This document shows positions 19,398-45,754 of a stretch of DNA of 64,000 nucleotides, piece after piece. The position numbers were made by a program, and so were the translations under genes. The DNA is from Gamarada debralockiae (taxonomy: Eukaryota; Ascomycota; Leotiomycetes; Helotiales; Hyphodiscaceae): positions 1 to 64,000 of the forward strand of contig NXFV01000012.1 of NCBI GenBank assembly GCA_002803225.1, written 5' to 3'. A model generated the notes under the pieces. The model was not told the origin of the DNA, ran no database searches, and was given only the letters and a program-made list of their open reading frames with translations. Positions within the stretch are counted from its first letter, which is position 1. Each line of letters starts with the position of its first letter.

Positions 19398-22117
19398 CTA
19401 CCTAGGCTCCGACCAATCTACCTGATCCGTGACCTGCCCTGCAGAAGGATGTCCATAAGAGATCTTCAATCGTAACCGCAATGGAGGCTGAAGAAATCAT
19501 ATTAGCATGAGGTCTCATACGCGACAAAAAATGATTCAAGTTTTTACTTACTCCTTTGCTTCCCGTAATTCTCATAGACTGCGCAGCCTCGCCTCCCGGC
19601 CCTAATTCAGAATTGGACATAGCGTTCAATTGAAGCTTCTGGGTCTTTGGGACAGCAGCTTGTAGGGCGACCGTAGATAGTGGCTGGTGCATTGAATTGT
19701 TCCTGAATCGAGCCATGACTTGTACTGTGCCTTCTGCGTTCCGTTGTAATTGTAGAGTGATATTGAGGTCGTTCTTGTCGTAGCAGGGATGTGTAGGGAT
19801 GCTTGGCGCGGCTGGTTGAGGCGGAGGCGAGGACATTCCACCGAAGAGTTCGGTCGAAGGGGGCTGTGCGCTTTGCATAGTTTGTGATGGACCAGGGGCA
19901 CCGAAGAGATCCATAATAGAGCTCATGTTTGATTGTTGAGGAGTGGATGAGGTTGCTGGTGGTGGTGAACTCCCCCCAAGAATGTCTGCCAGGAGATCGG
20001 TGTTGTTGGTGGAACCGTTTGGTGAGGTGAGATCTGCCGCTGGCATGCCACCATCGCCCATGAGGTCGAACAACAGATCTTGCTCAGCAGGTTTGACACT
20101 CTTGGACTTGCGATTTACGGCCTTATTTGGTTTCTTGGCTGCTTCACCAAAGACTCGAGATTCCTCCTTGATCTGTGGAGGAGGCATTTTCTCCAAAACG
20201 CCTCTTCGAATTGCGTCGTACCCGAACAGATTCCCATATTCGACAGCTCTTTGTTGTACCTCGATGTCGAGACTAGCCGAGTTCCCTTGAAGTATCCGTC
20301 GGATCCTGTCGATCTGGGCGGGGTCTGAAAGTCGAGTCGTAAGCTTCATCAGTGATGTGATGATATACTCGGTCGCAATTTGGGTTGCATTACTGCTGTT
20401 CAGAATCGTTGAAAAGAGATCGACGATCTCGTGCTCCTTGACCTCTTGCACCAATTCTTCCTCTTCGTATTGTCCGCCTCGCAGAAGGGCATCACCAAAT
20501 TCACCTATGCACCATGCACCGGCCAATGTTAGACTTTCTTGTGTAATATCCTTCTTCAGGCCAGCATACAGCTTCTGCACGGCGTAGGTTTGCAATTCCG
20601 GGGTTGTAGCGATCAATCGGATGAATGATGACAGGATCTGCTCCTTGACATAATTCCCAGCCAACGATAAAACCCTCAACATTGTGTCGATATGCCATCG
20701 CTTGTTGGGAGAGAACCTGTCCGCCGCGATACCAATCTGACTGGTCATGATTGGCTTGAACTCGTTGTCTGCGACTTCCAAGAACGCCAATAGCTCCCGA
20801 ATCAGGAGTCTCACGTTGCTCTCATTGATGAGTGTGAAACTCAAGTCCAGAGCTCGCCTCCTGATACTAATATCCGGATCGCGCAGACATTCGAGGATTG
20901 TATTGCGGTGTCGCTGCACTGCATTCGGCTCGACTGCCACAACTTTGATCAAAGTATTCAATGCGACGTAGCGGATGTTGTTATCCCTGTTGCTGAGGAA
21001 TTTACCAAGAATATTGACACCCAGCACTCGTAGTCCAGAGTCTGCCTCGATATCGAGAATCGTGAGGACAGCTTCGTAGAGAATGGAGTTTCCAACATTC
21101 TTGGAGGAGTCGGTATTTGTTGCGACTTGTGCCAAGATATCGTTAATTTGCTCACTCGTCTGGGCATCTCCACGGCCAAGGACTCGAAGTAATTGTAGAA
21201 TCTTGACTTGGAGGAAGGGGTCCGTTATGCCCGTCACATCATGCTCTGGGGCATATCCTGAACTGGCCAATCCTTTCAACGTCCGGACCAGGCCTCCAAC
21301 GAAAGGTCTGAATTTCTCTACAACTCCTTCCTCGCCTCCTTCAGCCTCGTCAGCTTCGCAAAGACTTGTGACCAATGTTAAGCCACAGAGTAGGACGCCG
21401 TGGTTTCGATCAGAGAGTAGAGAAGCTGCCTTTTCGAAGAAGTGCTCTTGGAGATCCGGTACTTTTCTACATATTCGCATGGCGCACAGTGCAGCTTTAC
21501 GTCGAATGTAGGGGTTCGCGGTGGAGAGGAGGGTTTCGATTTCGGGGAAGAGATCTCTTGACATTTCGACGGATGCGATGTTTCCGAGAGTACAAAGGGC
21601 GAGTCCGACAATATATTGATTCGAGTGATTGAGATCACTGCGCAGATGTTAGATGCACCCTGGCCAAGTTTTCAATATCACACGTACTTCTTCAACGAGT
21701 TTGTAACCAAAGTCAGCACCTCCTGGTTCTCATCCAGCAACAGCATTGTGCCTAAATATCCCAATCGTTTGTCTGCGAATCGAGGTGATGCCAAGAGCTT
21801 GAGGCATTCTATTTGGCCGAAATGTGTTCGTTCTCCAAGCGTGAAAAGATATAGCAGCTTTGCGACATTGTTCCGTCTGCATTACCAACATCAACTTGTG
21901 CTACTGCTATCTTCTTTTGTGGCCGCCCTACCTGACGTTCGAGTCTCCACTCTCCTCCCTGAAGCTTGCTCTAATCGCAGCGCTTTCCTTCTGCACAACT
22001 GCACGTTCATCCGCGATTGTCTTCGAAGCCCGCACATTGCGAATAAACTGCTTCACTGGAAAGGAGTCCGTCAGCTTGGCTATCGAGGGGCATTTTGGGC
22101 GCCTTACAGGAACTCAT
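19398..22117 (-). CDS. AP-1 clathrin adaptor complex, gamma-adaptin
   Basis: Five exons in frame: complement of 22108..22117, 21932..22055, 21688..21876, 19552..21637 and 19398..19487, giving 832 aa. The start is a 10-base exon (Met-Ser-Ser plus one base). It joins [20 protein letters not shown], the highly conserved gamma-adaptin N-terminus. The alpha-solenoid trunk follows ([59 protein letters not shown]), then a flexible hinge with [11 protein letters not shown] and other clathrin/accessory-binding-like acidic motifs, and a gamma-ear domain near the C-terminus ([20 protein letters not shown]). The last exon encodes 29 residues that complete the ear. The protein sorts cargo between trans-Golgi and endosomes. 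Equivalent yeast gene is APL4. It marks the end of the pseudogene-rich zone. Confidence 0.95.
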
Positions 22118-22614: not shown

Positions 22615-24385
22615 ATGTCCTCAACAGATGTCCACATAAACGGGAACGGCGATGCGAACCATGACCATATTCTCCGGCCTCGAGCTGTTAAGCCCTCGAA
22701 TCCAGCTGTACTTCGTGCGATGAGTAATGATAAACTCTTTGCAGCAAATGGCAACAAAGAACTACTGTCACCAGAGACTGGAACCTCGACAGGTCAAACA
22801 AGGTATGGCTTCTTGGAAGTTTTGCATTGGACATAACTAATGATAGCAGTGGCCGTTCAACTCCAATTCCTGCAGATGCGCCGCCCTCTGTTCAATCGAT
22901 ATCATCGGCGCGGAAGCAGCTGCGAGCTGAGCAAAGACGAAGATTATTCCCTACAATCGAATACGCCTCGAGAGTTTCCCACTTCGATCCCAATAGCGAT
23001 TATCGAGATTTTCAGGGGTTCTATATACTCTTCTGGATAGCCCTTACAATTATGGCTGTAACGACGATGCTGCGGAATGTTAAAGATACTGGATATCCTA
23101 TGCGGGTGCAGATTTGGCAACTATTTACAGTCAAGGTGTGGGAATTGGCTTTGGCAGATGCTCTTATGGTTGCAACTACAGCTGTCAGTTTGCCTTTGCA
23201 TAAGCTCTTTAGAAATAGGACTTTGGGGCTGCGCTGGGCTGGCACTGGGATGGCAATACAGAGCATTTATCAAACAGTGTGGTTCGCATTTTGGGTGATG
23301 TGAGTGCTGTCCACTTCCTGCATGCAAGTCCTGAGCTGATTCTCCTCAGTGTACCCTTCCATCGTGACTGGACTTGGACCGCCCAAGTTTTCCTTACCCT
23401 CCATACACTGGTTCTTCTTATGAAGATGCACTCCTACGCCTTCTACAACGGGCACCTCAGCGAAACAGAACGAAGACTCCAAGCTCTAGACAATCCATCA
23501 ACAGCCTCCAAGGCGCCGGCGTATCTGTATCCAAGTGCTGGACATACACCGACTTCAGAGGAGCGAGAATCCGCTCAGAGAGACGCAGACGAGAAATCAA
23601 GCCTAGCGCGTCTTCGCGAAGATCTGGCTATTGAGCTCACCTCTCCCATGGGCTCAGTAACCTATCCCAAGAACCTAACCTGGGCAAACTACGCCGACTA
23701 TCTTTTGTGTCCAACGCTCTGCTACGAGCTTGAGTACCCACGAACAGCAGGAATCGTCTGGACAGAGCTCGGGTACAAGATTCTCGCCGTCTTCGGCGTG
23801 ATCTTCCTTCTGACTATCACATCCGAAGAGTTCATCCTGCCCGTGATGATCGAGTCCGCCTTGCGCCTAGAAACCGTCACCTCCTTCTCAGAGACGGCTT
23901 TGATTCTTGCAGAATCTATCTCCATGCTTCTCTTCCCCTTCATGATCACCTTCCTCCTCGTTTTCCTCGTGATTTTCGAGTACGTCCTCGGCGCCTTCGC
24001 AGAAATCACCTGTTTCGCAGACAGGCACTTCTATTCCGACTGGTGGAACTCCACCGACTGGCTCGAGTTCTCGCGGGAATGGAATATTCCCGTCCATCAC
24101 TTCTTCCGCCGTCACGTCTACTCTGCCTCTCGGCCTCACATTGGACGACCCATGGCAACGTTGATCACTTTTTTGATCAGTGCGATTGGGCATGAGATCG
24201 TGATGGCGTGTATCACGAAGAAGATTAGAGGGTACGGCTTCATTGCGCAGATGAGCCAGCTGCCGATCGTGATGTTGCAGCGAACGAAGTGGATCAAGGG
24301 CAAAAGAGTCCTGAACAATGTATGTTTCTGGTGCTCGATGATTTTGGGACTGAGCATGATGTGTTCTCTCTACGTTCTATGTTGA
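22615..24385 (+). CDS. Sterol O-acyltransferase (ARE1/ARE2-type, MBOAT)
   Basis: Three exons, 22615..22802, 22847..23299 and 23350..24385, join in frame to 558 aa. ATG 22615 has a good context (CAAAATGTC). A cytosolic N-terminus of about 100 residues precedes multiple membrane spans. Diagnostic ACAT/DGAT motifs are HFYSDWWNSTDW, followed by WNIPVHHFFRRHVY and the presumed catalytic His in ISAIGHEIVMA. The enzyme esterifies sterols with acyl-CoA in the ER, feeding lipid droplets. Intron 1 is only 44 bp and ends TAGCAG, offering two acceptors three bases apart. The hydrophilic segment near residues 270-320 is a cytosolic loop. A diacylglycerol acyltransferase role cannot be excluded by sequence alone, but ARE-like features fit better. 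Confidence 0.9.
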
Positions 24386-28496: not shown

Positions 28497-30554
28497 TCAA
28501 GCAGCATAAACTCGTTCACCTCTCGGTGGTGGCGGCGGAGAATAATAATCTCTCACGGTGTGTGGATGATGAGTTGGGTCACTGCCTCTCCGATAAACAT
28601 CATTGTAAATGACATCCTCGGGTCCATATGGGGTCGCATATTTGATTTCCCCAAAAAATGTCCCGCCAGGAGCAGGAGCACCGCCACCTCCACGCGTAGC
28701 ACCCCTGCTGTGACCATGACCTGATTCTCTCGGTGGCATCTTGGGTCTCGCATCACGGATGACAGGTTCGGGAGCTTCAGGTGGCGGCGGATAATACGCT
28801 TGTGAATGGGAGCGAGCTGGTGCCTGGCGAGTTCCGCCACTTCCTGGGCCACGGGCCATGGGAGGACGTTCGCTGGCTCGTGGGTGGCGAGTTGTGCCGT
28901 GTGGTGACTCTGACCGTTCGCGATCACGTGGCGCGTATGGAATCCCATCGTCGATGTTGCGCATTTCTGAGCGATGGGATGTCCGGGATGCTATGGGAAC
29001 GCTCCGGCCATTGTCGATGATGTATCTCGTTGGTTCGGGGGCTTCGCGTCGGCGAGATGGTGGAGGGCTGTGCGAGTGGCGATTTGAGGCATATACTGGA
29101 GAGTCGGATTCGGAATCAGAGGAATAGTCCACTTTCTTCTTTAGGCGGCTTCCCCGCGCAGTACCTCTGTCTGGTTCTCGATCTCCGGATTGGAAGGTTG
29201 CTGCTCGTGGGAGTGGCGGAACGGCTGCATCTTTACTGCGAGGGTAGTCTTGGGTTTTTGACCGACTGGGCTCCTTTCTCGTAGCGAATATGGGTGGTGC
29301 GGATTGGTGTGTCTGAAGAGTAGGCTTCTGCTTCAGTGGTGGAGAAGGTGGTTCAACGATGTACGCATCTCTCGATCGAGACCGGGGTGACTTCTTCTTA
29401 TCCTTCTCTCGCTCTTTTTCCTTACTCAAAGATTTCGGAGCATCCTTACTTCGAGACGTCGGTGGCGTCTCCGAGGTTCTTCTCGAGGTCCGATGGGCAG
29501 AAGATCGTCGAGGAATATCATCATCGCTAGGGGGGTATGCTACTGGCGCCTGAGGAGGGACAGCATATCTGATATTGTACTTCATTTCCGGCCCACCAAA
29601 CGTCTCCGCTCTTTGCGGCGGTCTTGGGTGGAACTCTTCGGCTGGAGCTACTTTTCGGCGTGCGGCTTGCATGTATTGTGCAGCGAACTCCTTATGGTCA
29701 TCCCATTTCGATGTAAGAGGTGCTTGTCGAGTCGCCTCCGTTTTTCGAGCAGCTTCTCGTGCAGCCTCAGCTCGAGCATCTTCATTTCGTATCCTAATCT
29801 CCTCCTCCATGCGATGTCTCTCCTGTCTTGCCTTTTCCTTTGATCGCGCAGCCCGATGATCATCAGAATCATCTTCCTCGACATAAGCAGCCCGACTGCT
29901 GTACTTCTCCTCAGCGCCTCTCTTCTTCTCCTTATCGCTCCGCTTCTTCTTCTCCCCGTGCGCAGCCCGCTTGCTCTCCTTCTCCCATTTCGCTCTCGCT
30001 CTCTCATCTTCCTCATGTCTCCTCATGTCTCGTGTTCTATCCTCGTCCCTCGTTCTCGATTTTCGATCTCGATCCGCAGACTCGTAACTCGCCGACTTCT
30101 TGGGATGTCTCATCGGCTCATACGCAACGTCCTCGTATGAATTCGGGCGCTGCTGTTGGGGATAAACCTTCGTCGTTTCTCTCGGCATCGGTTTCGGTGG
30201 AGGTCGAGTATATGTCGTGTACGTCGTAGCTCGAGGCTCTGCAGTCTTGACTTCGTACTCGAAGGGATTACTCCTAGGCGTCGGATTGCCTCTCCCCATC
30301 TCCTTCCTCAACGCATATAACTTGACCTGCTCGTCATATTGTAACCGGCGATTGTCGTCACTGAGAATTTCGTACGCTTGTTGCACTTTCTGGAACTCAT
30401 CCTGCTTGATAGCTTTCAGAGCGGTGTCCTGCACCTTATCCGGATGGCACTTCAGCACCAGCTTCCGATGAGCGCTTCGAATCTCCGACAGCTTTGCATC
30501 CTTTGATACACCAAGCAATTTGTAGGGATCGGGAGGCAATTCGTCGAAAGCCAT
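28497..30554 (-). CDS. J-domain (DnaJ/Hsp40) protein with long disordered tail
   Basis: Single exon of 685 aa from ATG 30554. Residues about 8-76 are a J-domain: PDPYKLLGVSKDAKLSEIRS, the HPD motif inside KCHPDKVQD (37-39), and FQKVQQAYEILSD. J-domains stimulate Hsp70 ATPase. No Gly/Phe region or zinc finger follows, so this is a class-III (type C) J-protein. The remaining 600 residues are highly charged and low complexity, with Arg/Glu/Lys coiled-coil-like stretches (RKSRTRDEDRTRDMRRHEED) and many Pro/Arg/Ser segments. Such proteins are typical of Pezizomycotina, and their clients are unknown. RS-like and RGG-like bits hint at nuclear or RNA association, an inference only. Confidence 0.85.
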   Translation of the reverse strand: MAFDELPPDPYKLLGVSKDAKLSEIRSAHRKLVLKCHPDKVQDTALKAIKQDEFQKVQQAYEILSDDNRRLQYDEQVKLYALRKEMGRGNPTPRSNPFEYEVKTAEPRATTYTTYTRPPPKPMPRETTKVYPQQQRPNSYEDVAYEPMRHPKKSASYESADRDRKSRTRDEDRTRDMRRHEEDERARAKWEKESKRAAHGEKKKRSDKEKKRGAEEKYSSRAAYVEEDDSDDHRAARSKEKARQERHRMEEEIRIRNEDARAEAAREAARKTEATRQAPLTSKWDDHKEFAAQYMQAARRKVAPAEEFHPRPPQRAETFGGPEMKYNIRYAVPPQAPVAYPPSDDDIPRRSSAHRTSRRTSETPPTSRSKDAPKSLSKEKEREKDKKKSPRSRSRDAYIVEPPSPPLKQKPTLQTHQSAPPIFATRKEPSRSKTQDYPRSKDAAVPPLPRAATFQSGDREPDRGTARGSRLKKKVDYSSDSESDSPVYASNRHSHSPPPSRRREAPEPTRYIIDNGRSVPIASRTSHRSEMRNIDDGIPYAPRDRERSESPHGTTRHPRASERPPMARGPGSGGTRQAPARSHSQAYYPPPPEAPEPVIRDARPKMPPRESGHGHSRGATRGGGGAPAPGGTFFGEIKYATPYGPEDVIYNDVYRRGSDPTHHPHTVRDYYSPPPPPRGERVYAA

Positions 30555-33500
30555 TATGTGATTAATGAAAGGTTGATCTAAGGGGGGAGGGGTGGCGATC
30601 AGTAAGTGTTGTCGAGGTTGCTTGCTCGACGTCCTGCGAGTTGGTACCCAAAGAATCTATCGCATGGTAACAGATCGCAGCGGTGAGGAATTGGACGTCG
30701 AAATGACCCACGTTTCGATTGATGCGATGCGATGCAATGCAATGCTCAGTATGGCATGTATGTGTTCATGTAAAGGAGTGAAATGTACTGAGAGAGAGAA
30801 AAGGTGAATGGTTTTATCGCGCAGAAGCGGGATGGCGATGTTCCTGGATTGATTGAAGGCCGCTGCCAATCGAGAAGTATGAGGTCACGGGTCTTTCCTT
30901 AGCGAGGCGAGAGAGGGATGTTGATTCGTTGAGAGGTCTGAAATCTTTGGTGTCAGTTTATCAGCAGGCCGCAGTCAAATCTTCGTAAGCTAGATTGCCA
31001 CTTACAAATTTGCCTTCAAATGCAAATGCAACGTCGGAACTGAAATTCACAAAAAGCAAATAAGGGGAAGATTCCAGAGGAAAGGGATAGATCGGATCGA
31101 GGGGCCAGAGCCTCGAGTTGGGGGAAGCTTGGATTTCCAAACGACCAGAAGGAGGCGGTGAAGTCCTGTGAACGATTCGCGAGCCTGGCTTCGTCGCGCG
31201 TATCCTAATGCCTGTTGTGCTGTTGGGAATCGTTCTGTGCTTGGCTCTTCTCGAAGTGTCCAGCCTTGGACTCGAAACCTTGGATTACGCGGTATATGGA
31301 ATTATTGGTACGGCAACGGTAGAAGCAGGGCGAATTTGATGCGCAAGAAGTGACAGATTTATCGTCGTGGACAGTTGATACCGGGCAACTTGGAGATGAT
31401 CTTGATAGAAGTCGGGCCCTGCCTGATGACTCGTGATGAAAGCTGAAATATGGATCGAGAAGGATTCGAGAGGAATTCGAAGGACACGATGGTCTGCGAG
31501 ATTTCGGGGGAGCCTGACCAGAACGTTGCAAAAACTGATGTAAAGCTTCAGAAGACAATCTCAGCGCGCCTCACAGATAAATGGGTAACCTGAGCGAGTA
31601 AGTGCTGAAATAAATGAGCCGGCCGATGTCAGCGCGCAGGTTGCGATATCCGACTTTCCTTTTGGATACCAATGAGTTTCGTCCGAAGTAGCTGAGTTGG
31701 CTGAAGACTACTGGATCTCACATAAAATCCACTCACGCATCGAGAAGGCAGACCAACATCACTACTTATCGAGGGCGGACATCCAAACCAAGTAAATAAC
31801 ACCACTCTTTTGCGTGCTCGGGTCAGATCACAGTAGTCAAGGTAGGACGCGCACCAAGAGGCCCAAGGATTGTTATTGGCGGAGGACAGCCAGTCAGGGC
31901 ACGATGAGGTCTTTTTGTGGAGAGTCGTGGTGGTCTCATGCACCTCGTCCATTTTTGCGCTGCCATGATTAACGCACTACTTACTCACTACAAATGGCAT
32001 AGATCCGTTTTCTATCACTGTGAACCGTAACTTTGTTGCCGCCGGTGCGACCCTTTTCATAAAAATCTAGCAGCCTCAATTGTGATATCTATGTGATGAG
32101 ATCAATGTATGGCGGCCGGCAAATATACCAGCACACCCTCCATTTCTCAGCCCCTCGAAGGGCGATGGGACGAGGCCCTACCAAGAGCAGCGATATCCTG
32201 GATAACGCATTCAGGCCCAACCTCCTCTTCCCCGTCCAGTGAGATGGTGGTGGTGATTTAAATGGCTGCCTTTCTCACCACCAGCGTCTACATGTTCCTG
32301 ACTCTCCAATCGGCAGACCTCTCCTTCGCCGATGTTCCGGCCCTTCCACCAGTTCCATTCTGCGGTGAAGGCTTCTTCTGCAAGCCTTTTTCAGCATCAC
32401 TTGCATTTGACCTTGCGTTATGGAACGTGCCGCTTTCCCTACCGGCGAATCTAAAAGCTAGCTGTCTGTAACGCAACCCGCATCGAATTGCTGTTGACAA
32501 CGGACGAACCGTCAGGACACAAAACTCTGTCTCGTGAGTGATTTGTAGGTACTGACGAATCTACTCGACTCGAGCTGCTTATCCAACGATCAAGCTATTC
32601 AAAATCCAGCAAGCACTCTGTATCACCCAAAACCCATCCCATCCAAGAACTCACCTCACCCCCAAATCTGCGCACTTCGTAACAAGACTACTGTACTTCA
32701 CCTTCTGTACGGCAGATCCTCTCCTCATTGCCAAACGCGGGAGCATCTCTCAAATCCGCCATGCACCAGTCCTTTATCGGCATCCCGCACTCACGCACTG
32801 GTCCCCGCTATCCGTTCAGGGCCTCAGATGCACGAATGCGGGGCAAAGTTTCAGGCCGAACCCACTGTGTCCACTTGTCGCCTTCTGTGTCGAGGGCATG
32901 ACCTCTCTCTCCTTAGATCTCCTGTCCAACCACTAAAATACAAACATTGAGTGGGGGAACTGGGTCAGATCGGAGGCCTGACGGGGTCTCTCCTTTGCCG
33001 TGAGCTCTCTCTCCTTGATGTAGCTTCCAAATCCTGCGATGCTGCCTCTCGCAGCTCCAGGCCACAAACATCGAAGATCCAGTTCTCCTGAACTCGAAAT
33101 CCAAGGAAGTCCCAGAAAGTGCCTGCATGGTCCCAGCGCACAGAATTTCCAGTTATTGGGTCTCATCACGGCGCTTTGCAACGTGGCTGGCCTGTGAGGT
33201 AAGTGAGGTGCGTGAGGTGCGGGGTCGTGTGTGGCTCGAGAGCAAGACAGACGAGGCTCTCGATGTCGTGTCACCCAAGCCTTCCCAATCATGAAATTGA
33301 AAAGGCTGGAGAAATCCGAAGCTCGTTTTGCAGCTGAAGAGATACTCCGAGTTTCTCATCGTGCGCGTTTCAGCTGCTTGGGGCTCAAAGTTGAGCATCG
33401 ATAAGAGATTGTCATGTGATTGAACACGTGCGATTCACGTTGTGAGTCACTAGAAGATGTATTCAAAGTCGATTGAATCGAGAACACTGGTGGTTTATAA

Positions 33501-34107
33501 GTGCATCATGATAAAGCTGTAGCCTTTCTATAGATATATACTCCTCATAAAATAGACTATTTTCTTCACCCACTTTGCATTCCGATTCCGTCTCACTTTC
33601 ACAACTTCTCTATTCCGAAAGCAACAAGAAGCCTTGAGACTTTGCGAGCGCAGCAACAATACATTCAAGATAAACACACGGGATTATATTCCAAGGTGAA
33701 GCGTTCGCAATGCCAAATTTTTATGGCTCGTGGCCTTCGGCAGCGACTGTTGGCTTCCTCCTTCCCTCCCTTGCAGTCAGAGTTGAAGTGTCGTCCTCTT
33801 TGTACCTCCTCAGGCTGGTATGCCCCACCCAGAGAATCATTCATAAAATCCGTACTATTAGCGATCACCGATACCTCCTCTCCAGCCCTCGTGTGGCCCA
33901 ATTTACATATATGCCGCTTACACTTCTCGTGATGGTTCAGAGAAAATGGCAAGACAGTATCAATATGCGTCTTCTCATAGTAAAAGATCTCCTTCGCAGT
34001 CTGAGAACGGTGATCATGGCAATCACAGAAGTCTCTGTTCGCCTCCTCTTCATCCCCGCCATCATACTTCTTAGACAAAGTCTCGTAGTGCGAATCAGTC
34101 TGCCCTA
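30555..34107. other. Long gene-poor region
   Basis: About 3.5 kb with scattered frames of 60-120 codons on both strands, none showing a domain, coherent exons or a secretion signal. The GC content is normal here, unlike the AT-rich islands, so it looks like ordinary intergenic DNA with perhaps an unrecognised small gene or non-coding RNA near 31.1-33.4 kb. Confidence 0.45.
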
Positions 34108-35407
34108 TTACTGGTCGCAACAGAACATCACCCTTCTTGGTGCTGGGCCGGCGTATTCGCGCCTCACAGTAGGTCGGGAAATCGCATCAAAGGAGGAAGT
34201 GTCGAATGTTCTCTGGGATGACGTGTTGAAAGGTATCCTTTGCGTCCTTGTGGATCCCGTGACATTGTTGAATTCATTGCCACTGTTAATCAAACCCATG
34301 ATGTTAGTTATCAAGGACAACCTTATATCCCTCGGAAGAGAGATACGATAAATTTCTTCAACTTGGCTGAACGAACGAAATTCCCATCTACTCGTCCAGC
34401 ACCAATCCGAGCGCAAGCATCGTTTTCGTTGCCATTTATCACATAAGGACTCATATCAAAGTCATAACCTGCAAAGCTTAGACCGTCCTCCAGTCGGCTT
34501 TCTCTCACTGCGTCGACAAGAACCGCGGCCACTGAGCCTATATCTTTGTACCCCTGCAGTCTGGTGACTATTGCCTGGGCAACTTCTGGTTCAAGGTATT
34601 GTATCGCCATCAACGGATACTGCCAAGCTGTTTCAAAAATTCCTTTCATTATTTCGCAATTTGCATGGAGGGCTGGATCTGCTTGCAGGGTGAACAGGCA
34701 GATAATATTGTCAACTTGCAGTCCAGCAGTCAACTCTGCCACGGAGAAGAGATTCTGGAGATCGACTGGCCAGCACCTCAGCTCTTCGGATCAGGAGTAC
34801 TACGCGATTTTAGTTGTTCATTTGATTTAAGTGAAACAGAAAGGGTAGCCAGGGAATGACACGCCGAAACTCTCAATTGGACTGGCTGATTCGGTATTCA
34901 CCCGCGTGTAGTAAAGGCGGTTCATCATCTCTTCGATCATCTGCAGCGAGGACTTGATCCGTCTCGCTTCCTTCAATGAGTTTCAAATCGTCTCATTCTT
35001 CCTATGGTACAGTACATGTTCCACGATATCCTCGCAAGGTGGCAGCTGCTTGCACCCTGTCTATTCGATGCCACACCGAAAATCCGCATCATGGGACGTG
35101 TACTTCGAAAAGAATGTGACCTCACCCATACATCTGTAGTCCTCAGGGACTAGATGGGCTTGTGCTTAAATAAACTGCCCATACCATTCCGCGGACCGTG
35201 ATTCGGCCAGGTGTTCGGGAGTCATTTCGAAGAAGTTTGTCTCGCATTTGCGGCGTTCGTGCCATACCCGATAGCGTATTCAATGGAGTTGTTGTTGTGA
35301 TGTGGGAATGTGCGGACTTCTTCATCCGGTAAATTGACAGCGGCGAGAGTAGCTGCATAAACAGAAGTCGAATCGAGACTCAGCGCAACCCATGCAGAGA
35401 ACCGCAT
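34108..35407 (-). pseudogene. Probable decayed secreted-protein gene, family unrecognised
   Basis: From ATG 35407 the reading opens MRFSAWVALSLDSTSVYAAT, resembling a signal peptide. Frame breaks and stops follow: segments such as CGIE, TGCKQLPPCEDIVEHVL and KEARRIKSSLQMIEEMMNRL are in one order but interrupted by in-frame stops. A longer open part at 34323-34742 carries ADPALHANCEIMKGIFETAW and DGLSFAGYDFDMSPYVI. The last pattern weakly recalls the tail region of large fungal secreted proteins with class V chitinase or killer-toxin-like architecture, but I cannot establish that. It may be a pseudogene or several exons with introns I failed to resolve. Confidence 0.35.
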
Positions 35408-36960
35408 CCTGCCTCATTTGTTTAGCTCTCGTGAGCGATTGGTAGATCTCTTGATTCTATGAAAGGCCATACAATCCTCCAATCCTCCCTCTCAACCCAG
35501 ATCGCGGAGATTATGAGCACCATTGGGCCACTCTAATTGCTGTAATACCTGCGTATCAAAAATTCCAATGCCCTAATCTTTCAATCGTGGTGGTTGGGCA
35601 ACGTCTCCTTCAATTTTGCGATGTCTATCCAAAGTAGTGATATTTCAATGGTTCAACTCCTATTGGGGATTGAGAATCTGAGAGGATACTTTCGAAATCA
35701 GATTACTTTGTACGTTCCAGTAGTTCTAGTCTTTCCCATAGCGATTGAGAAGTTTTGTATGGGCAGAGAGCGAAAATCCTTTTTTCCTCGACGTTGAGTT
35801 CAACAGTTGCCATCCACCCCGTCACGGTTGGGCGAACTGATTCATGGTCCATGAAAGAGCGGTACCCGCATGTCAAGCTCAAGCATACCATACAAGACCT
35901 CAGCTGTGACCCACTTCCAATAGCATTATGACCCAAGTAGTCCGTAATAAAGAAAAGGAACCGTAATCTCACATCACAGCAAGGGCCGACATACTGCCCA
36001 AGTGATTGCGACACCTCACAAGGTCCAGAGTCACTGGATGTGATACTATAAAGGGGACACTGGTCAGGATATCCTTTTGGTAGGAGCGTGGTATGTTGTA
36101 ATCAGCCTTGTTTGATATTGGAACCTCACTTCTGATCATCTCGTTTCTGTAAAATCACAGCAACAATGGTTTTGCTGCAGTCCAGAAACATCAGCACACT
36201 ATTCATGCATCACCATCGCTTCATAATTCCCAATACTATAAAAATAAAACACTTACGTCTTTGTAGAGGATACAAATGAAGCCGAAACGTTCCAGAATCT
36301 GTAACTTTGAAATGTTGCCGTCCAAGACTCCCGCGAAGCAAGCTCTGGATGTGACATTAGCTCATTATTCATGGGATTCGAAAGACCATTGGAAACCCAC
36401 CCTGGTCCTCTTACCATGAGAACAGGAAAAGATCACCCACCATCACTTCATCATGCAACGTCCCCCATCACCATCCGAGTCCAAGACAGTCCTCTCACTA
36501 CGAACGATCTCAAAATCGCCTTGAACTCCAATACACAAACGCAAACCCGTACCCAGCCTTGAACTCCTCCCTGAACCTTTCGAATCCGGCCAAGTGGTCA
36601 TCCTTCCGCTCTCTTCACCATCATCAGTGATTCCAATCAATATGAGCCAAATCTTCCATTTTCCTGCCCTTCTTCAGAGCGTGATCGAAACGATCACACC
36701 TAATCTTGTGATTTGGGAGAGGGGGGCCGATATCAACGAAAGGACGCTCGCGATGGAAGATCTAACGCCTCTCTCGCATGCAGTTGCAGTAGTATTTATT
36801 GGCTTCTTTCGCGGACATGGAAGCAGTTCTGTTCTTAACGTTGTCGCAATGAGGATGTGACCCCATCCGCACCTTGATCTTTCGCCTGGTTTTGGGATCC
36901 AAATTCCAAGCTCGCAGACAGCGATGAAATAGTTGACTAGAGGGAATTGTTGTAGATCTG
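35408..36960. other. Gene-poor region, nothing recognised
   Basis: Short frames on both strands (for example 35703-36014 minus, 36594-36860 plus) lack domains. Composition becomes AT-rich at the right end. Confidence 0.45.
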
Positions 36961-36989
36961 TTCAAAGTCCATTAGTACATAGGAATAAA

Positions 36990-37580
36990 GATACTAGTAG
37001 GAGCTAATACCTGTTCTCATAAATAAACGATGATACTACTATTAGTATAATAAGAATATATCTAGCTAAGGATATAATAAACCGCGCTATGTAATTTATA
37101 GTATTAAAAATTCCTACTTGATTGAACTTAATGTAATAGGATAAACAGGGAAAACATAGAAAAACCGGGATTCGATATTGAGGCCACGTTGTATTACTAT
37201 ATTATTCGAGACTTTATAAAAAATCGGTTATATATTTTTCGTCTTTTGCCTTACCCCCCTTTTTCCTTATAGGAGAAAAAGGATATTTTAAATACAGATA
37301 GAAAGAGAAAGAGAACTAGGGCACGTGATCCGCAAAGTGTTACATGTTTCCCTAGTATATTACTTTAATAGCTTTAAAAGATAATAAGTACTTAAAAAGG
37401 TAATAGAAATATAGTTAATATATAGGCATTTTAAAGTATAGCTTATTAATAGTGGAATAAGTTATGTAGTGCCTTAACTTACCCTATTTAATCGTTACTT
37501 ATTATATATATATAATTTTTATTATAATAGTTCTATACTAGAAAAAGAGACGAAGTCTGATAATTCATTTACTTCTTCAG
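36990..37580. repeat. AT-rich island downstream of the gasdermin-like gene
   Basis: Strongly A/T-rich with many TA steps, no sustained reading frame and only short GC patches. It begins about 700 bp downstream of the gasdermin-like stop codon. It looks like a RIP-mutated repeat, of which no coding remnant is recognisable. Confidence 0.6.
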
Positions 37581-37682
37581 TTCAATATACTTGCACTTTT
37601 GATTCAGTTGCCCAAGGTAGGTACACGAAGGTAATAAACTGTAGTTCCCAGAACGCTATCACTAGGGAGAAATAAGCTGGCC

Positions 37683-38624
37683 CTACTCATAAACAACAAG
37701 CATATCTCTGTCTCCAGTATTCAGCAGTAGTTCGTCAGTCTCTATCCCGGAAATGATGACGTCCGCGTCAATACTTTGATTCCTCTTAACTGAGCCAGCT
37801 TTGAACTGTTCTACCGCGTCGTCAGAGTCCCAATCAATCTCCTCTTCCTCCTCCTCTTCTTCATCATGCCCTAAGGCAAGGTGATAAGCTTTGGCCCGCT
37901 TGGGCGGGCCAATGGTCGGGTTTGAGGTGAAAAGTTTCTTCGACGCTGATGGCTTGTACGAGAGCCGTGCAACCGAGTACGAGACTGCAAAAATCTCTTC
38001 CTCGGCCACGGCTCTTTCGTCGCTTTGCTGGGATGAACCCGAGCCACATAGGCCTCCGCCAATGTCCACTGCTCCTGCTACGGCAGCCGGGAGTACAGTG
38101 GAGACGGGCACGGTGACGTTGAGCGCCGTTTTGCTATTTTGACTTCCATCTATCTTCCAGGCACTTTTCGTCGTAGTGAGGAAGCCCGTTACGAGGTAGG
38201 CATGACGGGGCCGGACTTTCTCAAGCAACGCGCGGACATCTCGCGAGTAATTTTCGTTCTTCATGAGCTCTTCGAAGTAGTGCTCAGGGTTTGGCAGAAT
38301 ATAGCGCTTCACACTCTCACTTTCTAGCGTCCTGCTTTGTTCCTCGTTGCGGGTGACGTGAAAGCCGACAAGGTTGGCAAGTTTCACGGATACTCCTCGC
38401 TCGCGCGCAGCATTTCGGAAAGCTTTAATCGAGGTAGACAAGGACGGTTCCGGAAGGATTGAGGGTATAATGTCGTCGGTGTTGTGGCTCGGTGTTCCAG
38501 GAAGTGAAAAGGGCGCGAATTGCGTGAGAGGCGACGTCGTCGAGACCACCACTCGACACAAAAAACTCTTTATCTCGGTCGCCGAGATTGGTTGGTCAAG
38601 AAGAAAGAAACTCGATTGGGCCAT
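37683..38624 (-). CDS. Gasdermin-like pore-forming protein (candidate)
   Basis: Single exon, 313 aa from ATG 38624; the in-frame upstream codon is TTG, so the start is clear. The N-terminal 225 residues alternate beta-like and amphipathic stretches. HAYLVTGFLTTTKSAW (141-156), a hydrophobic Ala/Val/Gly-rich stretch (about 166-193) and EEEIFAVSYSVARLSY (208-223) follow the order of gasdermin N-domains, where a YVVT-type strand, a membrane-inserting hairpin and an 'I-AYRV-QL' type strand occur. A short tail follows, with a basic patch, a Glu run (DEEEEEEEEIDWDSDD, 254-269) and a terminal hydrophobic piece. It would be the autoinhibitory segment, released by proteolysis. Fungal gasdermin-like proteins (HET-Q1, RCD-1) trigger heterokaryon-incompatibility cell death. 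Divergence from a CHAT-NTPase gene supports the call, but sequence similarity alone is weak. Confidence 0.55.
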   Translation of the reverse strand: MAQSSFFLLDQPISATEIKSFLCRVVVSTTSPLTQFAPFSLPGTPSHNTDDIIPSILPEPSLSTSIKAFRNAARERGVSVKLANLVGFHVTRNEEQSRTLESESVKRYILPNPEHYFEELMKNENYSRDVRALLEKVRPRHAYLVTGFLTTTKSAWKIDGSQNSKTALNVTVPVSTVLPAAVAGAVDIGGGLCGSGSSQQSDERAVAEEEIFAVSYSVARLSYKPSASKKLFTSNPTIGPPKRAKAYHLALGHDEEEEEEEEIDWDSDDAVEQFKAGSVKRNQSIDADVIISGIETDELLLNTGDRDMLVVYE

Positions 38625-38961
38625 TTGAACAAAACTGAGTGAAATGAAATAAATGCCCAACCCGGCTCCGCAAGGGCTGCCGTCATTACATATATGCGGA
38701 GGCTCCCCCGATACTGCAGCACGTCGCCATTTCGGCGTACAGCACGCTCCTGTTTCAAGTGCGCCATCCTAGGTATGAAACAGCATGCAGGGTGGTGCGG
38801 CACAGCCATCGCTAATAACCAACAACAGTTGCCACCCCTGTGCACTGGAAGAATTCGAAATTTTGGGAGTGATCAAAATTGTACAAGTACAAAACGAACC
38901 TCTGATCTCTTCTTCTGACAGTATGCAGAAGCTATAGCGTCTTAAGAGTAAAATAACTACC
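38625..38961. promoter_or_regulatory. Shared divergent promoter of the cell-death pair
   Basis: Only 337 bp separate the two start codons, so both genes must share regulatory DNA. No long palindrome or canonical box stands out; an ACATATATG sequence lies near 38687. The arrangement suggests co-expression of pore former and protease. Confidence 0.7.
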
Positions 38962-41900
38962 ATGCCTAATCAAAAACGAGTGTCCCTCCGGCTCATTGCA
39001 CGACAAGCTATCGATGGGTGGGCGGTGGAGGTCGTCAAGGACGGCACAATTGTACAGCGTGGTGTCCCCGTTAGAGACCCTCTCAGTCCGGATCAAAGGT
39101 CGACCTGCCGTTGGTACCTCGAACAATACGTCGAATGCTTGCCCTTTTCGGTAGACAGGGCTAAAGAAGCCGAGCTTCTGTTGGAGGGCTACCCCGAAGA
39201 TTTGCTGCGTCAGCTGTCCCTCCGGGAGGTTTTGGCCTCCGACTTCAAAGACGCTCCTTCTAACCTGGATTCGGTTTTGCTGTCCATCGAGGTTTGTCAC
39301 GGCAGCGACGAGGGAGGGTGCTCAGTCGACACCATCCACGGACTATTTTGGGAATTGTTGGAAGACCCAGAGCTCTGGTGCCACCCAAGATTGGCGGTCG
39401 TCGTCGAGCGATCTGTATCGTCACCTCACAGTGATCGGCCCTCGCAGACCGACAGGTTGGACTGTTGGAAACAACCTGATGGCACGCTCACACTCAATGT
39501 GCTCGTGGTAGTAGCAAGGAATATAACCCAAACGCCATCCATGTACGACGACATCAGCCCATTCCTCGCAACAGACGCGCTTATCAAGGTCCAGAAGATT
39601 CTGGCAGACACTAGAAGCCCTATCCAAATCAGCCTGGAAATCGTCCGGCCGGGAACCTTTGCGTCATTTGTGAACCACTTGGAGCGCGCGAGAACCATTC
39701 ACGGAAAGCACGGCTACTTTCACGTTGTGCACTTCGACATGCATGGGAAAATCGGTACTCGAAAGGGGAAATTAAACAAGTACGGCTTTCTCTACTTCAG
39801 CGATCCAGCATCGGACGGCACCACGTTAGTGCCGGGACACTTTGTCGGCGAAATTCTGGAGAAATTCAAAGTCCCCTTCGCCGTCCTGAACGCATGCGAA
39901 TCTGCGAGGGCATGCCTTGGTGATGATGCTAATATCGCCCAACAATTCTTGAAGCACGGTGTTAGAAGCGTCCTCGGCATGTCGTTCAAAATAGCTTCCA
40001 GCGCCGCCGCTATCTTCCTCGAAGCCTTCTACCATGCCTTGCTAGTTCGTGGGGGTTCCTTTTCCGAGGCTGCGGCTGTGGGCCGTAGGATCTTGCGGAT
40101 GAATCCCATGCGGCCAGCAAGGTATAATCGGCAGCAGCGGCGGCAGGACAGCTTTGTTGCCGTCACATATGGACCTGGTTTGGACTGTGTACTTGCACAG
40201 TCGACCAACTCTTGGCAGCGACCATTCATGCACCACACGATCCTCCTCCCGGCCATCTGCAGTGCGTCCCCTCCGACTCCGGTAACAGAAGGGCTATATG
40301 GCCGCGATTTTGACCTCTTGAGACTCGAAAAGCGGCTGTTGCAAACTCACTCTGTATATCTGTATGGATTGGCTGGAGTTGGGAAATCTGTCTTCCTTAA
40401 CCGTGCCGTCTCGCTGTGGAAATCAACAAACTTTGTCGACGCTGTTGTCGCGATTGATTTCTCTAAAGACCTGGTTTTGTCTGGCGAGGATGTGTCGCTC
40501 GCCATACTCCGCCAACTGTTGTCGCAAGTCAACGTTCCCAAGTATCAATCCCGCTTGTGGACCATACCTTCTCGTTCTCTCCAGTCCTACAACAACGTTA
40601 TGGTGGATGCGATCGTGGCCGAAATTCTCTCCGAGATAGAGTCGATCCTCATCTTCGATGGCCTGGACATTCCGCTCATGCCTCATCCGTCACATTTAGC
40701 TCCACCACTGAACGAAAGTTCGGTCGCATGTTTATGCCAACTTATGAACTCCCTGGTAGCACTCAGCCAAAATTCCAACAAGAAGAAACCTCGCCTAGTG
40801 TTTGCTGCTAGACGGGGTGACGCACAGTGGCTAGAGACACTGATTGGTCGCCAATTTCGGCCTCTCCTGCACGAGCTAGAAGAGTTGAACCTAGCCAGCG
40901 CTATCGACCTCTCCCACCAAGTGCTACAGACTTGTGGCGAGGACACTCATCAATGGAGCTATGAGGATGCCGATCACTTAGTGGGCATCGTCCAGTTGCT
41001 GGTATGCAACCCTTCGGCCTTGCTGGGCGTCCTGCCGCTCCAGCGAGCGCTCAAGATAGAGTGGCGGCTCTTCTACCGTGGCCTTCACCACGGCCTTTTT
41101 GCATCGGTAGCCGACCTGGAACGAGTGGATTTTGGCGCTTCTCGCTTTTCCCGAGAGATTCGTCACGCTTCTATCAACCTCCGCCAGGGTCATTTCTTCT
41201 TCATCTGTCTCTTTGCCTTATACTGGGATGAGGCAGTTTCGGTGGCAGCACTTCAATCCATCTTCTCTGAGACGGCAAATGCATCGCTGCGCCAGGACTT
41301 CCACGTCCCAGGCCGCTCCGAGCTCTACGACCAATGGCCTTTGATTTTGCTGTCGTTTGCTTTGGATCGTGGTTATGTCCGCGTCGGTGATGGCGGAGCC
41401 TGCCTACATATACACCCTTTGCTTACAATCGTGGGACGGGCGTATCTCTCCGCCTTCATCACGCCCGCGGACAGGAAAAACCTGAGGACTATGTTTTGCT
41501 CCTCGCTAGAATCTCTACATTCCCTTTTTGTCCAGCAGAAGCGGGGGCTCAGGATTGGAATCGCGAATCTCCTCTCGTCCGCTGATTTCTGTTTGACAGA
41601 CGTACCACCCAAAAATTGGCCCTTGAGCCTCTTTGCCGCTCTCAGCGACCCGACTCTATCGAGTGCCCTACCGCTGACAACACGTTCTGTGCCGCAGGAA
41701 CGAATCTTCCAACTCCTCAAGCTGCTCTCCGCTAAGTTTGATGAAGTCGAGCAGAAAGAACGATACGTAGCATTTTTCGTCCTAGTCCTCCTTCGTATCG
41801 TCTCGACTCTCGAAAACAGCAGTCAGAGTTGGGAGCGCGCTTCCGAGTTTTCATCCATTGGTCTCCGTCTCCTCCCATCGCTGGATCAGCAAAACCTCGC

Positions 41901-43869
41901 CCAGAACACTCAGGTTTACCAAAGCTGTCTGCTCTTGGTGCAGTTTCTTTCTTCTTTCCCTCTGGAAGATGATGCTGGGCGCCAGAGAAGCTGGCAAGTT
42001 TTAATATCACTCAAAGATGAATTGTGCGAGAGGCTCAGCCAGAAGGGCTCACCACTCCCAGACCTACAACATCTGGACTTGTTATCTGCCGGGATAGATG
42101 GCATTCGCAGTATGGTCAGAGATATCCAAGATGCTCAAGGTCCTAATATGGAGCTCTCAGACTCATGCAACTTTGTTCTTGCCATTGCTCTTCGCTTGAT
42201 CGAAGCGGACAAAGCAGGGCTCCTAGCCGCAGCTACCCCGAGGACAGAGACATGCCAGCAACGCACGGCAATCTCCGAGCAACAGGCGCCCGAGCTGTCT
42301 GTAGATATCGACATCGACCAATTCAAACGAATGCTCGGTTTTGACGAACGGAACCTCCAGTCGATTCCGATGGCAAATACAGAAGCCGATACCACTCGGA
42401 ACAAGGCTCTCGAGAATTCTTACGAGACGGGCGACTGGATGCAATCCTTGGAGCTTCACGAAAGAATGTTCATAGAGGCATCGAACGAATATCGGTTTAA
42501 GGAAGCAGAACAACACATGGAGTCAATGCGAGTTATCCTGACCAAGGTCTCGGCGCCTCGCAAGTTATTCGACGCACTGGACGACCAAAAAAGGGTTATG
42601 CAAGCAAAATACAAAAGCTACTTGGTCTTGTGCACTTTATATCAGTCGACATCGGAGGACGGAGGGCACACGGCTGAGGACCCGCGGCCTGAGGACGCTT
42701 TGGGAGAGCCGGAGTCGACTCATAAGAGCCAAATGCCCCGTCCGACTCGCCAGGCTATGCAGGATATGGCGGTAGCTATGAAAGAGTACGAGGAGAACCC
42801 ACGCAAATGGTGGGAATGGTGGGAAAGGGGCTCAAGCCAAGGCTCCGGATGGATTGCGCAGGTATATGATAACTCGGTCAGATACAAAGAGGAAGCCAGG
42901 CTCATGAATGAGGTGCACGGCGCGTGCATGGCCAAGGATATGAACACCGCACTATCTCTAATACACAGACTGGATGCTCTTTGCAGAGACGGCATCTTTG
43001 CAGACTATGGCCTGCGCCCCTCGCCCTTGCGGCGGGTCAGAAATTACTTCGAAACTGCGCTTTGCCAGTCTCAGATCCTCCATGACTGGCAGGCTGCGTT
43101 GGCAAGCGACGATTTCAAAACAGCCAAAGCACTCCTGGACAATTTGAGTGCTAGCGTTCGGTTAAATGGTACCTCCCTCAACCCCAGTAATATTGAAGCC
43201 CTTTACGTGACTACCGATCGAGAGCTTTTGCTTGACTTTACGCTGCAGTTCAACGCAGCAGCGAAGGCTGGGCAACTAAGCAGCTGTCAGAAGCTCTACT
43301 GTGGGTTTGTGGAGCTCGTGGACAGGGGTGAACTCAGCCGCATCAAGCCAGAAGAAATAATGGTCTTAAAATCCGAGGCTCTGGGGATGCTGATGCAACA
43401 AACAGTCGAAGACAAGCAATGGAATGCCGGCATCTCATATTGCGATGAGTTCTTGGTGCTGTGCAACGGTTTGCGGAAATGTGATCTAGAGGCACGAGAC
43501 TCTTGTGTCCAGGTCAAGTTGCGTTGTGAATGGGGCCTTGCTCAGGAAGAACTCACGGCGGCAGAGACCAGCCTCAACTTTGACAAGTGTCTTGAACTCG
43601 TTGATGCCATGGAAAGTCTCTATGAGACCCAGAAGGCAACACCCGGAAGAGTTCGATCCCTGTTCGTCTTTCTGGGGCCGAAACACGTGGCATTCTTGAA
43701 AGGGTCGTATCGCGACCGATGCCTCTGTTGCGCGCGCTGGAGCCGCCAAAGAGTACCGGGTGATTGTCCGTTCCCAAGGGGTAGGGGGCCGAATCATAAC
43801 CGATCTATCTTTAGAGCACCTTTCGGATGCTCGCATCATTGTAAAGGGGGATATTGTTGGTTCATGTGA
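38962..43869 (+). CDS. CHAT protease-NTPase-repeat (NLR-like) protein
   Basis: Single open frame of 1635 aa from ATG 38962 (good context). Residues about 140-410 form a CHAT (caspase-like, HetF/TPR-associated) domain: HVVHFDMHG puts the catalytic His at 261 and VLNACESA the catalytic Cys at 312. A STAND-type NTPase follows with P-loop YGLAGVGKSVF (469-476 core) and Walker B SILIFDGLD (Asp 566), and FAARRGDA as a sensor-like segment. From about residue 730 the rest is alpha-helical with TPR-like repeats (KALENSYETGDWMQSLELHE, FKTAKALLDNLSASV). The last 75 residues (after about 1560) are Cys/Arg-rich and unlike the rest, as if translated out of frame. The true protein may therefore end sooner or be truncated by the transposon remnant that follows. 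CHAT proteases act as effector domains of NLRs; the adjacent gasdermin-like protein is the obvious substrate. Confidence 0.9.
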   Translation: MPNQKRVSLRLIARQAIDGWAVEVVKDGTIVQRGVPVRDPLSPDQRSTCRWYLEQYVECLPFSVDRAKEAELLLEGYPEDLLRQLSLREVLASDFKDAPSNLDSVLLSIEVCHGSDEGGCSVDTIHGLFWELLEDPELWCHPRLAVVVERSVSSPHSDRPSQTDRLDCWKQPDGTLTLNVLVVVARNITQTPSMYDDISPFLATDALIKVQKILADTRSPIQISLEIVRPGTFASFVNHLERARTIHGKHGYFHVVHFDMHGKIGTRKGKLNKYGFLYFSDPASDGTTLVPGHFVGEILEKFKVPFAVLNACESARACLGDDANIAQQFLKHGVRSVLGMSFKIASSAAAIFLEAFYHALLVRGGSFSEAAAVGRRILRMNPMRPARYNRQQRRQDSFVAVTYGPGLDCVLAQSTNSWQRPFMHHTILLPAICSASPPTPVTEGLYGRDFDLLRLEKRLLQTHSVYLYGLAGVGKSVFLNRAVSLWKSTNFVDAVVAIDFSKDLVLSGEDVSLAILRQLLSQVNVPKYQSRLWTIPSRSLQSYNNVMVDAIVAEILSEIESILIFDGLDIPLMPHPSHLAPPLNESSVACLCQLMNSLVALSQNSNKKKPRLVFAARRGDAQWLETLIGRQFRPLLHELEELNLASAIDLSHQVLQTCGEDTHQWSYEDADHLVGIVQLLVCNPSALLGVLPLQRALKIEWRLFYRGLHHGLFASVADLERVDFGASRFSREIRHASINLRQGHFFFICLFALYWDEAVSVAALQSIFSETANASLRQDFHVPGRSELYDQWPLILLSFALDRGYVRVGDGGACLHIHPLLTIVGRAYLSAFITPADRKNLRTMFCSSLESLHSLFVQQKRGLRIGIANLLSSADFCLTDVPPKNWPLSLFAALSDPTLSSALPLTTRSVPQERIFQLLKLLSAKFDEVEQKERYVAFFVLVLLRIVSTLENSSQSWERASEFSSIGLRLLPSLDQQNLAQNTQVYQSCLLLVQFLSSFPLEDDAGRQRSWQVLISLKDELCERLSQKGSPLPDLQHLDLLSAGIDGIRSMVRDIQDAQGPNMELSDSCNFVLAIALRLIEADKAGLLAAATPRTETCQQRTAISEQQAPELSVDIDIDQFKRMLGFDERNLQSIPMANTEADTTRNKALENSYETGDWMQSLELHERMFIEASNEYRFKEAEQHMESMRVILTKVSAPRKLFDALDDQKRVMQAKYKSYLVLCTLYQSTSEDGGHTAEDPRPEDALGEPESTHKSQMPRPTRQAMQDMAVAMKEYEENPRKWWEWWERGSSQGSGWIAQVYDNSVRYKEEARLMNEVHGACMAKDMNTALSLIHRLDALCRDGIFADYGLRPSPLRRVRNYFETALCQSQILHDWQAALASDDFKTAKALLDNLSASVRLNGTSLNPSNIEALYVTTDRELLLDFTLQFNAAAKAGQLSSCQKLYCGFVELVDRGELSRIKPEEIMVLKSEALGMLMQQTVEDKQWNAGISYCDEFLVLCNGLRKCDLEARDSCVQVKLRCEWGLAQEELTAAETSLNFDKCLELVDAMESLYETQKATPGRVRSLFVFLGPKHVAFLKGSYRDRCLCCARWSRQRVPGDCPFPRGRGPNHNRSIFRAPFGCSHHCKGGYCWFM

Positions 43870-44400
43870 GGATCCGGCCCTCGCAGACGGCGCCGGCCGG
43901 TGAGAGAACATCAGGTTGCACCTGAGACAATCCAAATCAATGGAGTCTCAGAGGCCTTCCCCTCTTGCTACTTCTCTGACATACTATAATCCCTCCTGCT
44001 GCCCTCCTGCTGCCCTCCAGCTACCTGTAGCTGTTATAACTCTCAAGCTTCTACCCACAGGGCCGATTGCACTACGTCGGAACAAGCAGCTCTTAGTGGT
44101 ACTAATACTGCTGCATCAACCTCAGGAACCAACCAGGAAGTCAATACCGCGGCTGACCTAGCTAGGCTTCAAGCCGAAGGCAAGGTTCTTACAACTCAAG
44201 AGCTTCAGGAGCTCAATACTAGGGTTAAAGCCCTCGAAGACATGGCCCAGCTCGAAGAGCGTCTCAGGAACCTTGAAATCAGAAATGCACTAGCAAAGCT
44301 ATTGAAGACCTCATTAGTTAGGCTGCTAGTCCCCCTGTATCTTAGTCAAAATATCTACCTAGTCACTGCAGTCTCCGTACTCCGCAATAGGTCCGCAGCC
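43690..44400 (+). mobile_element. Gag-like transposon remnant (tentative)
   Basis: Downstream of the CHAT gene a plus-strand segment reads TAADLARLQAEGKVLTTQEL and QELNTRVKALEDMAQLEERL near 44150-44270, a coiled-coil Gln/Leu-rich pattern like retrotransposon Gag proteins. A second segment (EYRVIVRSQGVGGRIITDLS near 43755) lies just before it in another frame. The assignment is by composition only; no reverse transcriptase, integrase or terminal repeats were found. Boundaries are approximate and overlap the end of the CHAT open frame. Confidence 0.35.
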
Positions 44401-44558
44401 GATGTTTAATAGCTTGTTGATATACTTAATAGAATGCATCGCCACCTGCTCGTTTAGGTGTAGTCGAAATTTGGATTATGCTAATGTAATCATACGTTGT
44501 AAATAATTGCAGGCCTCTCTAGTTATGTAATCCTCATCTTTCAAGGAAGTTCATGAAG

Positions 44559-44837
44559 TTACGATAGAACTGTCCAGGCTTGGTTGGATTCATCGAGGTT
44601 CTTTTGGGTCATTTCCATGAAGCGAGGATTATCACCGCAAAAGTCGTCCCATTTCGCCAATGCAACACTTTCATTTTGGCGGAATAGACCTGGCATATTA
44701 TTATAACCGTTAAGTTGAGGGATAGTCCAAGATCCGACATTGTGACTTGTTTGAGGAAGGCGCAAAGCTGTGACTTCGTGGAGGGGAAAGACAGAACATA
44801 AGGCGAATAAGAATGTTGCCAGTGAAAGTAGCCCCAT
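44559..44837 (-). CDS. Small putative secreted protein (possibly truncated)
   Basis: ATG 44837 opens a hydrophobic leader MGLLSLATFLFALCSVFPLH followed by 65 residues containing one Cys (DDFCGDN) and an Asn/Trp-rich body. Length 92 aa. No homology recognised. It may be the first exon of a longer gene or a relic beside the AT-rich island. Confidence 0.4.
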   Translation of the reverse strand: MGLLSLATFLFALCSVFPLHEVTALRLPQTSHNVGSWTIPQLNGYNNMPGLFRQNESVALAKWDDFCGDNPRFMEMTQKNLDESNQAWTVLS

Positions 44838-45754
44838 GGATCCTTGAATTCAAGGTCAAGTATCGCAAGGTCACTTTGAAATCGAGCTCTTGGGATAGTG
44901 ATGAGCGGGAAGAATGTTGAAAAGAGCAGACAAATTTTGAAGTAGAAGGAATGAACAGCACTGTTGGAACGTGACATCTGAGTCATAACCAACGTGACTC
45001 ATGTCACTAGGTTCACTACACTGCATACCGTAATAATTGCTTCACAAGACCCTGTCTCAGTATAAGACCCCATGCTATATAAGAGCTGGGTTTCCCAAGT
45101 CAGATGGAGTCAAAATATATAAGATTTTAAGATAAGGGGTAGAATATTCACGTTGTAGTACTCGTTTATAATTTAATTCACTTGAAAATTAAGCCTAGAA
45201 GGGGTTAACTAAGTATTTATAATGGATTTATTTTAAAAGAGACCCTCGAAATACATGTAAGGTTCGATTGAAAGGTCGAATTCAAGTCTCTGTAATGAAT
45301 GGTACAATGCCTCTTACAGTACTCTATTCCTCTGATAAGATCTGATCCCAAATCACTAAAGTACTAATAGTTGAACTGCAAGACAGTGTCTTGTTGTGCA
45401 ATTGATATGGTATATAGCCCTTGGTCACTACTCTCTAAATGTCAAGCTGCTTTCACATTCTACAAATCTGACCTCACAACAAGCACTTGCTGTAATGCCA
45501 TCCTAGTTGACCTCAGTTCTACCACTTCCTACGTTGACCGATGATTTTGGTAGAGGCTGCAAATCCAAACGTCAAAGTGTTCCATAGAGGGCGTTTGAAA
45601 CTCCCGCTCACTAACGTAGGAAATGCGATCACACGAATCGCTCGAGCCGTCCGAAGAATTGGATGGATAGATCGCAGATTCTTACAGTCGGACAGAAAAT
45701 CCTCTCATAGAGTGATCCAAGTGTCCAAGTTCCGAATCTGAACACCGCCCGAGG
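44838..45754. other. AT-rich intergenic stretch
   Basis: The part from about 45.1 to 45.4 kb is AT-rich (TTTAAGATAAGG, TTTATAATTTAATTC) and lacks frames. The remainder is ordinary spacer leading to the metallophosphoesterase stop codon. With the island at 37.0-37.6 kb it brackets the cell-death locus. Confidence 0.5.

Follow-up and report, generated by a model that had tools for sequence, protein, structure and literature searches.

The locus is a divergent gene pair within a 64,000-nucleotide stretch of Gamarada debralockiae DNA (contig NXFV01000012.1; hereafter the window). A gasdermin-like protein of 313 aa is encoded on the reverse strand at positions 37683-38624, and a CHAT-NLR protein of 1635 aa on the forward strand at 38962-43869. 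Both open reading frames are uninterrupted, and 337 bp (38625-38961) lie between the two start codons, as a preliminary description of the locus had stated. The small gene is assigned from its frame, 65 homologues, an AF2 model and matches to gasdermins in the PDB, and the large gene from its frame, the Pfam match to CHAT, its homologues and its conserved C-terminus. Taken by itself, the identification of the two proteins, one with a gasdermin fold and the other a CHAT-NLR, is in our judgement nearly certain. The possibility that an intron or a frameshift interrupts the CHAT gene near its 3′ end, suggested by other-frame ends in the annotated relatives P0071, P0072 and P0073, was considered and rejected; the frame is taken as intact to 43869 because it is kept in P0076 (44% identity) and P0081 (39%).

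The CHAT caspase-like protease domain covers residues 214-378 of the large protein (39601-40095, forward strand) and scores 44.4 bits in Pfam against a cut-off of 24, the match spanning profile positions 113-266 of 289, which is the second half. At least 80 CHAT homologues were found (scored among the 7988 candidates sharing most words), and alignments A2 and A3 used 46 and 41 of the 80 listed. Residues H257, D259, H261, N310 and C312 are invariant in a 47-row alignment, and these columns place the predicted catalytic Cys312 at codon 39895-39897 and His261 at codon 39742-39744, in agreement with the CHAT domain proposed earlier. Weak PADLOC matches to BovA (4e-6) and SAVED_CHAT (0.0013) were read as the shared CHAT domain, and a PDB sequence search with the 1635-aa protein returned nothing at E<=10.

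Residues about 440-890 (40279-41631, forward strand) are predicted to form an NLR-like (STAND/NB-ARC) NTPase and the helical domains after it, based on the AF2 model and its fold matches. The P-loop, GLAGVGKS (40366-40386), is present as previously claimed, with G474 and K475 invariant in the 47 rows. The NACHT and nSTAND6 scores of the protein lie below the Pfam cut-off. In Foldseek and VIA-align, the best fold matches of the model are NLR and related STAND NTPases, including plant NLRs, CED-4, apoptosomes and archaeal ATPases, and the NTPase part is thus predicted to have an NLR-type (NACHT or NB-ARC type) fold with a P-loop. Residues about 891-1599 (41632-43758, forward strand) are all-helical in the AF2 secondary structure and presumably form the sensor. 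This region had been called a repeat domain; Pfam gives no repeat match (TPR, ANK or WD40) in the 1635-aa protein. In VIA-align the NTPase part filled the list, in which the helical sensor had no fold match of its own.

The protein ends in a Cys/His-rich stretch (residues 1581-1635; 43702-43866, forward strand) with the elements CxxC, C, GPNHNR and PFGCSHHCKGGYC, a possible metal site. A strict pattern for the last part of this end is found within the last 150 aa in 17 of the 80 listed homologues. The last part is retained in distant relatives even where the stretch preceding it is not; P0077, P0078 and P0085 are among these, and the preceding stretch may be a read-through intron.

All named homologues of the 313-aa protein are fungal, the nearest being from Halenospora varia (Helotiales, Leotiomycetes) at 95% identity, and alignment A1 (53 rows) took 52 of the 65 (13 were dropped, mostly short, extended or partial). 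Searches of the sequence against Pfam, PADLOC and PDB sequences gave nothing relevant, nor did the 53-row profile against PDB sequences or the 53 members against Pfam, so the gasdermin assignment rests on the structural model. Confidence in that model is moderate (mean pLDDT 61.9, with the tail and one loop below 50). Its predicted pore-forming N-domain (residues about 1-225; 37950-38624, reverse strand), delimited by AF2 strands and helices, could be aligned with RCD-1 and with bacterial and animal gasdermins in comparison against the PDB (TM 0.40/0.51 for RCD-1), and MACPF/CDC-type pore proteins rank lower in the match lists. The predicted structure thus fits the gasdermin pore-forming fold, the absence of which had been named as grounds for abandoning the idea. 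Alternating hydrophobicity of the kind expected of pore hairpins exceeded shuffled sequences in none of the eight predicted strands.

Behind the N-domain lies a conserved linker, PKRAKAYHLA (residues 241-250; 37875-37904, reverse strand), picked out by column conservation in A1: L249 is present in 53 of 53 rows, and P241, K242, R243, H248 and A250 in at least 90%. It is followed by the acidic C-terminal tail that the preliminary description had noted (residues 251-313; 37686-37874, reverse strand), with a net charge of -18 over its 63 residues. The feature runs through the aligned family: beyond residue 250 each of the 53 rows carries a net negative charge (mean -14.2), while the part in front averages +2.9. 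By analogy with the published HET-Q1 case, in the portion of PMC12881547 covered, we infer an inhibitory role for the tail and regard the linker as the candidate region at which cleavage or control may occur. In P0051 and P0054-P0061 (Beauveria, Cordyceps, Lecanicillium and others) the tails are shorter and less acidic (-6 to -10); no CHAT gene was matched to these members on a contig of the same size (see below), and they are possibly a differently controlled branch.

Linkage in relatives was assessed by comparing the longest contigs of the 65 small-protein clusters with those of the 80 listed CHAT clusters and counting those of exactly equal length in bp. Ten of the 65 matched, with about 0.045 expected from near misses, and the matching sizes include 6,595 and 9,975 bp. 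All ten pairs agree in data source, the four species-named pairs are each from the same species, and two carry consecutive locus tags. Of the small-protein clusters, 39 lie on contigs that reach 6.5 kb; for 29 of these, Beauveria and Cordyceps included, there was no equal-size contig among the CHAT clusters listed, in a test that sees only the longest contig of each cluster. Pairwise distances across 12 linked pairs are strongly correlated (r 0.90, reached in 0 of 5000 permutations), which points to co-inheritance, not contact, and would also follow from joint vertical descent.

The same arrangement recurs within the organism's own 54.3-Mb genome, in which we detected at least three gasdermin-like genes, each divergent from a CHAT gene; these searches ignore introns and score best candidates only, and further gasdermin-like genes may exist. 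Besides the pair in the window, one lies on contig C452 (G000:C452:52000-61999; CHAT 1981-6768, gasdermin-like 7114-8097; frames of 1595 and 327 aa). When aligned, its proteins are 22% (CHAT-NACHT) and 33% (gasdermin-like) identical to those of the window. The other lies on C869 (G000:C869:1-9999; TPR-CHAT 674-4270, gasdermin-like 5387-6307), and its small gene is weak by single-sequence search (E 0.03) and clear by profile. Four of the seven CHAT places in the genome (C422, C446, C707 and C872) have no gasdermin-like ORF in the 10-15 kb examined. The C707 match contains internal stop codons (6 TAG, 3 TAA). Adjacency, whose absence from all relatives had been expected to count against the module, therefore recurs both in the ten equal-size contigs and at a paralogous locus. 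The 65 homologues and the recurring linkage place the observation far beyond chance, and it is confirmed as real. A gasdermin-like gene adjoining a CHAT protease gene, the mark of a fungal fGSDM-protease two-gene cluster, is what we find here.

The 285-aa protein beside the TPR-CHAT gene on C869 belongs to a second family, whose alignment (A4) used 30 of 33 homologues. This family matches the 313-aa family in hhalign (98% probability, E 2.8e-13, 159 columns) and in a local hmmsearch (E 1.3e-12), and has a comparable layout, in which the conserved segment RLSKVRQWSS precedes a DEEDGEDD-type run. It has no Pfam match and no PDB sequence match. Its N-terminus presumably resembles published fungal gasdermins; this is our impression. 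The hhalign match points to a shared CHAT-linked superfamily, not to gasdermin identity. We rejected it as independent proof of the latter because the A4 family came from a similarity search and has no established tie to a known gasdermin.

Two-gene fGSDM/Q2L clusters with CHAT or S8 protease genes were described by Clave et al. 2022, as cited in the parts of PMC10197012, PMC12881547 and PMC9815663 covered. The locus shares with them the two genes, a gasdermin-fold protein with a short tail, and a CHAT domain within a large multidomain receptor. It differs in that its gasdermin subfamily matches neither any Pfam family nor any solved gasdermin in sequence, and in that the conserved Cys/His motif closing the partner protein is not mentioned in the literature covered. 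That literature, too narrow in coverage to call these features unpublished, likewise holds no mention of the 313-aa subfamily or its linker. The preliminary description had presented the locus, if confirmed, as a fungal case of an activating protease that is itself a large NLR; as a claim of novelty this fails because fungal NLRs carrying CHAT beside gasdermin genes have already been reported, as seen in the available portions of PMC10197012, PMC9815663 and PMC12881547. The gene pair adds a well-supported example to a published arrangement, the principle of which is not new. A CHAT protein has also been linked to incompatibility in Aspergillus fumigatus (PMC11138114, in part). In PMC12258605, on fungal NLRs in Sordariales, the words CHAT, gasdermin and caspase are all absent.

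The closest solved fold to the model is RCD-1 of Neurospora crassa (PDB 8JYZ, 8JYY), although the top chain, 8jyz_A, is only 14-15% identical in two structural alignments; according to the part of PMC12881547 covered, RCD-1 is triggered by the meeting of two allelic variants and not by cleavage. HET-Q1 of Podospora anserina, a fungal gasdermin, offers a likeness to the control proposed here: a protease removes a short C-terminal piece of ~5 kDa from it. That protease, HET-Q2, is a subtilisin-like serine protease. The earlier statement that HET-Q1 is cut by a neighbouring protease needs changing in one detail: a single locus carries either het-Q1 or het-Q2, which are different genes (idiomorphs), so HET-Q2 is not simply a neighbour (PMC12881547, same portion). 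The predicted NTPase fold of the receptor is shared with CED-4, the Apaf-1/Dark apoptosomes and plant NLR resistosomes, but here the protease lies inside the receptor itself. Bacterial gasdermins, which occur with clustered proteases, bear an N-terminal lipidated Cys. This is not evident here, because 52 of 53 aligned rows lack a Cys among their first ten positions.

We consider it probable that the pair is a two-gene regulated cell-death module in which the CHAT-NLR cuts the gasdermin tail to free a pore former, and the data fit such a model of proteolytic activation. The interpretation in the preliminary description, which would put the cut near the Glu run, is thereby supported in part. A signal would be bound through the helical sensor of the 1635-aa protein, which would then oligomerise via its NTPase and so activate the CHAT protease. 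This would cut the 313-aa protein in or just behind the PKRxxxxHLA linker and take off its acidic tail, releasing the N-domain, which is mildly basic and would oligomerise in the plasma membrane as a pore, leading to death of the cell or hyphal compartment. Such a pathway would be inflammasome-like, compact and testable, with sensor, caspase-like protease and pore former in two adjacent genes. Cleavage of the tail need not be the means of control, given that sequence cannot prove a cleavage site and that RCD-1, the closest solved structure, is reported to act without proteolytic control (PMC12881547, in part): the CHAT-NLR could bind or relocate a genuine gasdermin, or allelic variants could pair as in RCD-1. 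We judge this unlikely, as the pairing with a CHAT gene recurs and none of the 47 aligned proteins departs from the CHAT His and Cys, suggesting selection on protease activity.

CHAT might instead cleave another substrate, with the gasdermin kept nearby by co-inheritance (clustering of immune genes) and not acted on directly. The four CHAT places without a gasdermin-like ORF within the 10-15 kb examined indicate that CHAT does not need such a neighbour, and shared descent can produce the distance correlation. Against this, all three gasdermin-like genes detected adjoin CHAT genes in the same divergent layout, which would arise by chance with a probability of roughly 2e-9 if placement were independent, and a clustered CHAT protease has been reported to activate a gasdermin (PMC12881547, portion covered); this alternative is quite improbable. 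That the 313-aa protein merely resembles a gasdermin in its model and has a different function is very improbable indeed; in its favour are the missing Pfam and PDB sequence matches, the moderate pLDDT and the presence of MACPF/CDC-type pore proteins, if lower, in the match lists.

Within the preferred reading of a cleavage-activated module, the 313-aa family goes unrecognised by the profile libraries tried, and its conserved linker and the Cys/His end of the receptor offer handles on two questions about fungal gasdermin clusters, the position of the CHAT cut and the kind of signal to which the receptors respond. A more specific version, in which a distinct gasdermin subfamily with a control code of its own has its PKRxxxxHLA linker read by CHAT for cleavage or docking, its basic membrane-binding face masked by the acidic tail, and its NLR partner sensing metal or redox state through the Cys/His end, seems doubtful to us. 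If true, an NLR would fire a gasdermin upon metal or redox change.

Other Pfam matches in the window are a pro-kumamolisin activation domain (12391-12933), P450 (13684-14397), adaptin (19405-21648), MBOAT (23219-24382) and DnaJ (28500-30656); no second cell-death gene was found among the 10 ORFs of the window scanned with Pfam. A transposon origin of the pair was considered, and no direct or inverted repeats of at least 40 bp were found within 33000-45500. The pair is flanked on both sides by AT-rich DNA (36500-38000 and 44500-45500), at 36-40% GC compared with roughly 45-55% around it.
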